A program made the translations under genes and the position numbers. A stretch of DNA of 64,000 nucleotides, taken from assembly GCA_030728985.1 (NCBI GenBank), contig JANQYI010000018.1:1-64000 (forward strand), read 5' to 3'. Shown here piece after piece: positions 39,855-41,816 of the stretch. The notes below the pieces were generated by a model, which did no database searches, was not told the DNA's origin, and saw only the letters and a list, made by a program, of their open reading frames with translations. The first letter of the stretch is position 1. Every line of letters begins with the position of its first letter. The DNA comes from Burkholderiaceae bacterium (GTDB lineage: Bacteria; Pseudomonadota; Gammaproteobacteria; Burkholderiales; Burkholderiaceae_B).

Positions 39855-41150
39855 CTAAGCGGGTAATGCGATGGCGCGCGCAGCAAACCCAGAGTGTGCT
39901 GCATGATAGCGACTGACCGCAAGACCTTCGGTGCTGATTTCTGGACTTTTGCCAGTCAAAATATCCGCAATCAGCTTGCCCGATCCACAGGCCATGGTCC
40001 AGCCCAAGGTACCGTGACCGGTATTGATAAACAGGTTGCGCAGGGGGCTCGCACCAATGATGGGTGTGCTATCGGGCGTCATCGGACGCAAGCCTGTCCA
40101 AAACGACGCTTTTTTAACATCACCGCCTGGAAACAAATCCGTCACGACTTTTTCAAGTGTGGCGCGACGCTTGGGATTGAGTCTGAGATCAAAGCCACTG
40201 AGTTCAGCCATACCGCCCACCCGAATCCGCTGGTCAAAGCGGGTCACTGCAACTTTATAACTCTCGTCTAAAACTGTTGATTGAGGCGCCAAACTTTCGT
40301 CAACGAGTGGAACGGTGAGCGAATAGCCTTTGACGGGATAAACAGGCAAATCAATCTTGAGCGGCCCCAGCAGGTCACGCGAATAGCTACCTAGCGCCAC
40401 AACATAGCGATCCGCGACCAGCGTTTCGCGACCGACGCGCACGCCCTTGATGTCGTCGCCTTCGTTAATCAGTTGATGAATGTCTTTACCATAGAGAAAC
40501 TTCACGCCGAGTGACTCAGCCATCGCAGCGAGTCGGGTGGTAAAGAGGTTGCAATCGCCTGTTTCATCATTGGGTAGTCTTAAACCGCCCACCAGTAGGT
40601 GACTTGCATTTTTTAAGCCAGGTTCGACAGCAGTCAGTTCGTGTTGATGAAGGAGTTCGTAGGGGACACCACATTCTTTGAGAACCTCAATGTCTCGACC
40701 GGCTGCATCAAATTGGGCCTGTGTGCGGAAAAGCTGTAATGTCCCCGAGGTCCGTTGTTCGTATTGAATGCCGGTGTCGGCGCGCAGCGCGTCGAGGCAA
40801 TGGCGGCTGTATTCGGCCACCCGCATCATGCGTTCTTTGTTGATGACATAACGATCGGCAGTGCATTGGCGCAACATGCTCGCCATCCATTTCAGTTGCC
40901 AAAGACTGCCGTCTGGACGGATCGCTAATGGCGCATGCTCTTCGAACATCCACTTGATGGCCTTGAGCGGAACGCCAGGGGCGGCCCAAGGCGATGAATA
41001 GCCAGGAGAGACTTGGCCCGCATTGGCAAAGCTGGTTTCGTTCGCGGCGCAAGGCTGGCGGTCGACAACGGTTACGTCAGCACCAGCCTTTGCTAGGTAA
41101 TACGCGGTTGTCGTGCCGATGACTCCGGCACCTAAAACGATCACTTTCAT
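39855..41150 (-). CDS. dadA: D-amino acid dehydrogenase small subunit
   Basis: '[59 protein letters not shown]'. Confidence 0.96.
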
Positions 41151-41232
41151 GGAGGAGACCTCGTTCTTTAGGGAATAAACAAAGTTTAGAGGTAGTTTGA
41201 CAGTGTTTTTTTTTGATTTTTTTCAAAAAAAT

Positions 41233-41274
41233 TAAATAAATCACTTTTTTCGTTGTTTTTTGAGTGATTATTTA
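41233..41274. repeat. AT-rich inverted repeat TAAATAAATCACT ... AGTGATTATTTA
   Basis: About 12 paired bases with a one-base bulge around a 17-nt centre, in the dadA/csp divergent region. Confidence 0.6.
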
Positions 41275-41323
41275 GAGAAAAGTGGCTTATCACATATTTT
41301 GTCTCTTTTCTGGGAGTATTAGT

Positions 41324-41352
41324 TTGACTGTGGCAAGTTTCACACGTAAACT
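41324..41352 (+). promoter_or_regulatory. Candidate csp promoter TTGACT-N17-TAAACT
   Basis: -35 41324-41329, -10 41347-41352, 17-bp spacer; implies a ~135-nt leader. Confidence 0.55.
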
Positions 41353-41429
41353 CAAAGGGCAAGATTCTCAAGCGACGCGGTTTTTGTACCTAGGCTGTCG
41401 CCCTTAATGGTAAGCAGTGGTGTCTATCC

Positions 41430-41488
41430 CTTCCTTGATCATCTAGCACGTTGGGCGTTTTTGCCCGTTATTATATTTATCAAGGAAG
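41430..41488 (+). promoter_or_regulatory. csp 5'UTR hairpin sequestering the Shine-Dalgarno
   Basis: Perfect 10-bp complement CTTCCTTGAT (41430-41439) / ATCAAGGAAG (41479-41488), with nested GGGC/GCCC hairpin (41453-41466); AAGGAAG is the SD of the ATG at 41495. Confidence 0.7.
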
Positions 41489-41494
41489 TTCGAA

Positions 41495-41698
41495 ATGGCA
41501 ACTGGTGTCGTGAAGTGGTTCAATGCCGAAAAAGGTTATGGTTTTATCATGCCTGACGGCGGCGGCAAAGATTTGTTCGCTCACTATTCTGAAATTCGTT
41601 CGAGCGGTTACAAGACCCTCGAAGAAAACCAGAAAGTCAGCTTTGAAATTGGTCAGGGCGCAAAAGGCCCATCAGCTACCAACATTCAAGTGCTGTAA
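41495..41698 (+). CDS. Cold-shock protein (CspA family)
   Basis: '[34 protein letters not shown]'; 67 aa. Confidence 0.98.
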
Positions 41699-41743: not shown

Positions 41744-41776
41744 CCCTGTATCGCGTAAGTGGTGCAGGGTTTTTTA
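41744..41776 (+). terminator. Terminator after csp
   Basis: CCCTGTA / TGCAGGG stem (one G-U) followed by T-run. Confidence 0.65.
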
Positions 41777-41816
41777 CTAACCCTTATTTTCATCTTCATT
41801 TTTTAGCTGAAAAACT

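Follow-up and report, generated by a model that had tools for sequence, protein, structure and literature searches.

Why should a cold-shock gene carry a 5′ leader that pairs away its own Shine-Dalgarno (SD) sequence? If one hairpin alone hid the SD, it would close most tightly at low temperature, which is the wrong direction for such a gene. We addressed this question at a csp locus in a 64,000-nucleotide stretch of DNA from a Burkholderiaceae bacterium (hereafter the window). The reading that we favor, with somewhat better than even confidence, is that the leader works in cis as an RNA switch with two states, open in the cold and closed in the warm, and corresponds in Burkholderiales to the thermosensor of E. 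coli cspA. That the leader acts on translation, and that it does so in a temperature-dependent manner, is what we infer from the analyses below.

A conserved promoter and leader upstream of csp

The csp gene, initially annotated from an ATG at 41495, is a genuine cold-shock gene whose coding sequence (41495-41698, forward strand, as are all features of the locus unless stated) specifies a 67-amino-acid protein with a Pfam CSD match at 1.6e-29. Identical Csp proteins, preceded by near-identical leaders, are found in named genomes of the Zwartia/Sheuella/Jezberella group of the Alcaligenaceae, which places the genome of the window in this group. The sigma-70 promoter that had been proposed is likewise present at 41324-41352 (TTGACT at 41324-41329, a 17-bp spacer and TAAACT at 41347-41352). 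An alignment of some 25 representatives of the genus shows promoter and leader to be conserved as a unit: the -35 and -10 hexamers are retained, as is the entire sequence beginning at 41359, with variable bases between the -10 and that position; because conservation begins there, we predict that transcription starts near 41359, six bases after the -10. This gives a leader of 136 nt (41359-41494), in agreement with the roughly 135 nt claimed beforehand. Among leaders from 55 diverse relatives, 52 possess a TTGAC-like -35 and 49 a -10-like hexamer, with 10-18 nt usually separating the end of the latter from the downstream UCAAG element discussed below.

Downstream of the gene, a probable intrinsic terminator can be read from the sequence at 41744-41775 (CCCTG...CAGGG-TTTTTT); a terminator scan flags 41766-41784 instead, and csp is probably monocistronic. 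On the other side, the interval between the promoter and a divergent oxidoreductase-like gene (39855-41150, minus strand) is very A/T-rich with long T runs (41151-41323) and is not conserved among species of the genus. We judged, without scoring, that the leader is unlikely to encode a peptide because 1-2 nt indels between species would break any frame. A csp paralogue on contig C15 has no comparable leader as judged by eye, its strand being only roughly oriented.

Two mutually exclusive helices share one anti-SD strand

The initial annotation had centered on a perfect stem, and we find it exactly where it was placed: CTTCCTTGAT (41430-41439) is the perfect 10-nt complement of ATCAAGGAAG (41479-41488), which holds the csp SD. 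When the leader apart from its final 20 nt was dinucleotide-shuffled 5000 times, a complement as long as this one to those 20 nt arose 5 times. In this stem, which we refer to as helix A, the 5′ strand is the anti-SD CUUCCUUGAU and the 3′ strand, AUCAAGGAAG, contains the SD core at about 41482-41488. Helix A is perfect and conserved in Zwartia, and weaker in other relatives.

When RNAalifold was applied to 28 leaders, it returned, unprompted, not the SD stem but a second helix, helix B. Here the leader begins with an SD-mimic (GC-A-AGAU-UC-UCAAG, 41359-41372), which pairs with CUUGA-UC-AUCU-A-GC at 41434-41447. Support for both strands comes from RNAalifold, from the swap test and from the pair counts described in the next section. 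Since both helices use the same CUUGA strand, they are mutually exclusive, and in the predicted structures helix A hides the SD and helix B frees it. The leader thus has, in silico, the two alternative folds that characterize a mechanism of the E. coli cspA type, one with the SD free and the other with it hidden.

Helix B covaries across Burkholderiales

Within the genus helix B hardly varies, and more distant relatives were therefore brought in. There, the bases flanking the UCAAG/CUUGA core vary in concert, as in GCAAGAU/AUCUAGC of Zwartia and GCGAGAU/AUCUGGC of Achromobacter, with further paired flanks reading GCGA/UCGC (L198, L210), AGCGA/UCGCU (L211), GGCGA/UCGCC (L206) and GUUUG/CAAAC (L224). 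In the swap test on 55 diverse leaders, duplexes between a leader's own 5′ end and anti-SD strand averaged -10.74 kcal/mol as against -9.21 kcal/mol for swapped partners, a difference reached in 0 of 20000 permutations; when the invariant core was removed and only the extension scored, it was reached in 1 of 20000, and two control pairings of unrelated segments from the same leaders gave no signal. A structure-blind alignment of 54 leaders led to the same result: 90.0% of helix B cells pair, and 16 double changes are seen compared to 6.9 in shuffles (0 of 500). From the 54-sequence alignment, RNAalifold retains only the UCAAG/CUUGA core.

Most of these relatives were collected with models that contain helix B, so the sample favors it, and for this reason we also picked csp leaders by coding similarity only. 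In this set, local alignment showed that the 5′ part complements the leader's own anti-SD region better than it does a swapped one (116 of 20000 permutations, z 2.6), and a broader test of duplexes over long windows had no power (z -1.0). One leader of the set (L262) replaces UCAAG with CCAAG and CUUGA with CUUGG, which is a compensatory change in the core itself. Five other Burkholderiales csp leaders (L241, L249, L259, L267 and L268) have a GUUUG-type 5′ element that pairs with CAAAC adjoining CUUGAA, for example GUGUUUGGCUUCAAG / CUUGAAACUCAAAC, and leaders of this GUUUG/CAAAC type may represent a second allele of the same switch.

Covariation had been suggested as a check on the SD-hiding stem, and its outcome differs between the parts of the leader, as helix B covaries across Burkholderiales, the internal hairpin described further below covaries strongly over the family, and the SD stem does so only weakly, with no compensatory changes beyond chance on alignments. 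This is expected when one side of a helix is the SD. A swap test of the anti-SD strand against the ribosome-binding site gave a modest signal when the CUUGA core was included (31 of 20000) and none without it. In two leaders from other families (L210 and L211), the copy at the ribosome-binding site sits just before the AUG as GUCUUGA/UCAAGAC. Some Bordetella-like leaders (L158, L161 and L176) lack the UCAAGG copy at the SD; in the group formed by L158, L161, L164 and L176, helix B is kept alongside an SD of AGGUGG or GGGGUGG, which means that the closed state of this group must differ or be absent.

An additional fold near the 5′ end, proposed initially from two adjoining complementarities, survives in one half. 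The AAGGG/CCCTT pairing does not stand, as AAGGG (41355-41359) consists of variable bases that, given the predicted start near 41359, lie almost wholly before the transcript. By contrast, the GCGAC/GTCGC pairing (41372-41376 with 41397-41401), a possible local stem that shares one base with helix B, is kept in Alcaligenaceae, where 91.6% of cells are paired and 3 double changes occur.

Distribution of the leader

Scanning 251 genomes of the family with a covariance model of the leader gave matches in 102, and across the order a model rebuilt from diverse members recognizes it in 113 of 399 genomes, representing 65 of 159 genera. In a class-wide sample of 229 genomes, five besides the window's own possess it. 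In Achromobacter and Bordetella, a second copy of the leader lies about 1.2-1.3 kb upstream of the first, before a METG-type csp (L063 1649-1785, L064 1707-1844 and L065 1544-1680), such that two nearby csp genes carry the same switch. Another Alcaligenaceae csp type has a different leader and no ATG (L094-L098, L100-L102, L104, L105, L109 and L110). These genes probably start at TTG, judging from a conserved in-frame TTG (TTG AAG ACA GAA or TTG ACT ACA GAA) and the conserved AGGA motif that precedes it.

Order of folding and response to temperature

If the two helices compete, the order in which their strands are made would matter. Both strands of helix B are transcribed before the SD, so helix B would form first. 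Folding of successive prefixes of the window transcript follows this order, with helix B reaching a probability of about 0.8 by nt 80 and 0.96-1.00 from nt 85, before it is lost to helix A once the SD emerges at nt 127-130; this course is alike at 10, 25 and 37 °C. At equilibrium, helix A of the window leader is predicted to exceed helix B in stability by 4-10 kcal/mol throughout the range from 5 to 42 °C, and for this reason any opening of this leader in the cold would be kinetic. A rough path calculation puts the barrier from B to A at 20.9 kcal/mol at 10 °C and 14.0 kcal/mol at 37 °C; for 10 °C, ViennaRNA has to extrapolate its energies. In several relatives a switch is predicted at equilibrium, with helix B in the cold and helix A in the warm, and three (L205, L206 and L211) show the opposite predicted shift when the leader alone is folded. 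Across the family, comparison with shuffled leaders shows greater predicted exposure of the SD at 10 °C than at 37 °C (Wilcoxon p 2e-5, a value that ignores relatedness).

We therefore propose a mechanism in conditional terms. The mid-leader CUUGA would pair either with the 5′-end UCAAG, leaving the SD free, or with the UCAAGG at the SD site, hiding it. In the cold, helix B, having formed first, would persist through kinetic trapping and in many relatives would also be thermodynamically favored, allowing ribosomes to load; in the warm, the RNA would rearrange to helix A and translation would drop. Because a five-base CUUGA is common to both states, a few compensatory mutations could test this mechanism directly.

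Alternative explanations

Autoregulation, in which cold-shock proteins bind the leader and shift the balance between helices A and B, so that the signal would be free CspA together with global RNA structure and not temperature as such, is the strongest competitor to the thermosensing switch, and we consider it improbable, even though the two-state anatomy would accommodate it. CspA of E. coli attaches to the leader of its own mRNA and, in the cold, promotes translation from the closed form (PMC9947658), and the U/A-rich single strands before the SD here look as though they would suit such binding. Nonetheless, folding calculations alone yield a leader that is open in the cold and closed in the warm for E. 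coli cspA and for several of the relatives.

We find it quite unlikely that the SD stem by itself senses temperature by melting. A perfect 10-bp stem that is conserved in the genus fits this idea, but melting would open the SD on warming, contrary to what a cold-shock gene needs, and in silico the stem stays paired throughout 5 to 42 °C. A lone stem also offers no account of why the 5′ end is conserved and why it covaries with the anti-SD strand.

A similarly low probability attaches to the possibility that the internal hairpin is a conditional terminator that attenuates transcription upstream of csp. This hairpin, GGGC-GUUUUU-GCCC at 41453-41466 (hairpin H), is present as initially described, occurs in both states of the leader and covaries strongly, with 29 double changes in the structure-blind family alignment and 0 of 500 shuffles reaching this number. 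It is followed by a U/A-rich tract (41467-41478), a scan flags 41452-41467 as terminator-like, and U-runs follow the hairpin in many relatives. However, its stem is only 4-6 pairs long, the tract in the window is broken (GTTATTATATT), the hairpin is absent in several relatives (L057, L158, L161 and L178) and, as it does not overlap helices A and B, no anti-terminator is evident.

Least probable of all is that the role of the pairings lies in mRNA stability or RNase access instead of in the regulation of translation: helix B ties up the 5′ end and would protect it against 5′-end-dependent decay, and the stability of E. coli cspA mRNA changes with cold (PMC9947658), but the strand that protects the 5′ end here also sequesters the SD, consistent with translational control. 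The original suggestion of an RNA switch that controls access to the SD is well supported.

Relation to E. coli cspA and other known systems

The E. coli cspA thermosensor is a textbook case and has been probed mainly in one species. The widespread leaders described here, with their covarying second helix, lend evolutionary support to the two-state model and show which strands matter. The leader's wide occurrence also suggests that the Rfam cspA model misses many beta-proteobacterial members. The initial annotation had called the fold at this locus different from and simpler than that of E. coli cspA; this view is not supported, since it overlooked the competing helix, the order of parts is the same and the SD helix has its equivalent in the consensus structure of the Rfam family RF01766. 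As in E. coli, the leader belongs to a csp gene and has SD-hidden and SD-free folds (PMC9947658), and the parts of the E. coli leader (MG1655) are a 5′ SD-mimic UUAAAG, a CCUUUAA anti-SD, a GCC-GAAA-GGC hairpin, an A/U-rich tract and a UUAAAGG SD. The differences are that the pairing sequences here are UCAAG, CUUGA and UCAAGG, that the leader is about 136 nt as opposed to 159, and that the cold-box UGACGUACAGA is absent, the 5′ end being GCAAGAUUCUCAAG. In the E. coli leader (L227 3891-4049), UACAGA within the cold-box complements UCUGUA beside UUAAAG/CUUUAA, and the cold-box may be part of the open-state helix.

When the first 187 nt of E. coli cspA are folded, the helix of the 5′ mimic (the counterpart of B) has a probability of 0.96 at 10 °C, and that of the SD helix (A) is 0.89 at 37 °C. 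These computed states parallel the published forms, in which the SD is exposed in the cold and the SD and AUG are occluded at 37 °C (PMC9947658). The values should not be over-read, because, contrary to the calculation, the 187-nt fragment is reported to be unchanged with temperature, and the closed form involves coding sequence (PMC9947658).

Formally, the csp locus of the window is not a member of RF01766, on both score and cold-box. The whole mRNA scores 73.3 bits, below the cut-off of 78, over an alignment (1-428/428) much of which is coding sequence and which also takes in the probable terminator; an Rfam scan of the leader alone gives no match. The SD/anti-SD helix of the family is present and aligns to 41430-41439/41479-41488, whereas the 5′ cold-box stem is not found next to the predicted transcription start, the family's 5′ stem being mostly non-pairing in the window alignment. 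Among the loci from 17 relatives, two with more distant leaders pass (L205 at 96.0 and L215 at 81.7), as compared to 500.8 for E. coli. In Herbaspirillum seropedicae, another beta-proteobacterium, the cspA 5′ UTRs Hsnc114 and Hsnc117 are csp leaders too and are reported to match RF01766 at 94.3 and 86.7 bits (PMC7011215); they are listed there as Rfam matches, and the csp passages of that report give no fold or switch. In the literature on beta-proteobacterial csp leaders, this list is the only account we found. We give about even credence to the broader proposition that these leaders constitute a Burkholderiales csp family, largely missed by Rfam, in which a 5′-terminal SD-mimic competes with the SD for the anti-SD in the same design as E. 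coli cspA.

Heat-opened RNA thermometers such as ROSE and fourU consist of one melting hairpin that is opened by heat. The csp leader resembles them in sequestering the SD in cis but differs in having two exclusive helices and in serving a cold-shock gene. If our reading is correct, competition among a 5′ mimic, an anti-SD and the SD would be the core of cold-shock mRNA sensing that beta- and gamma-proteobacteria have both conserved.
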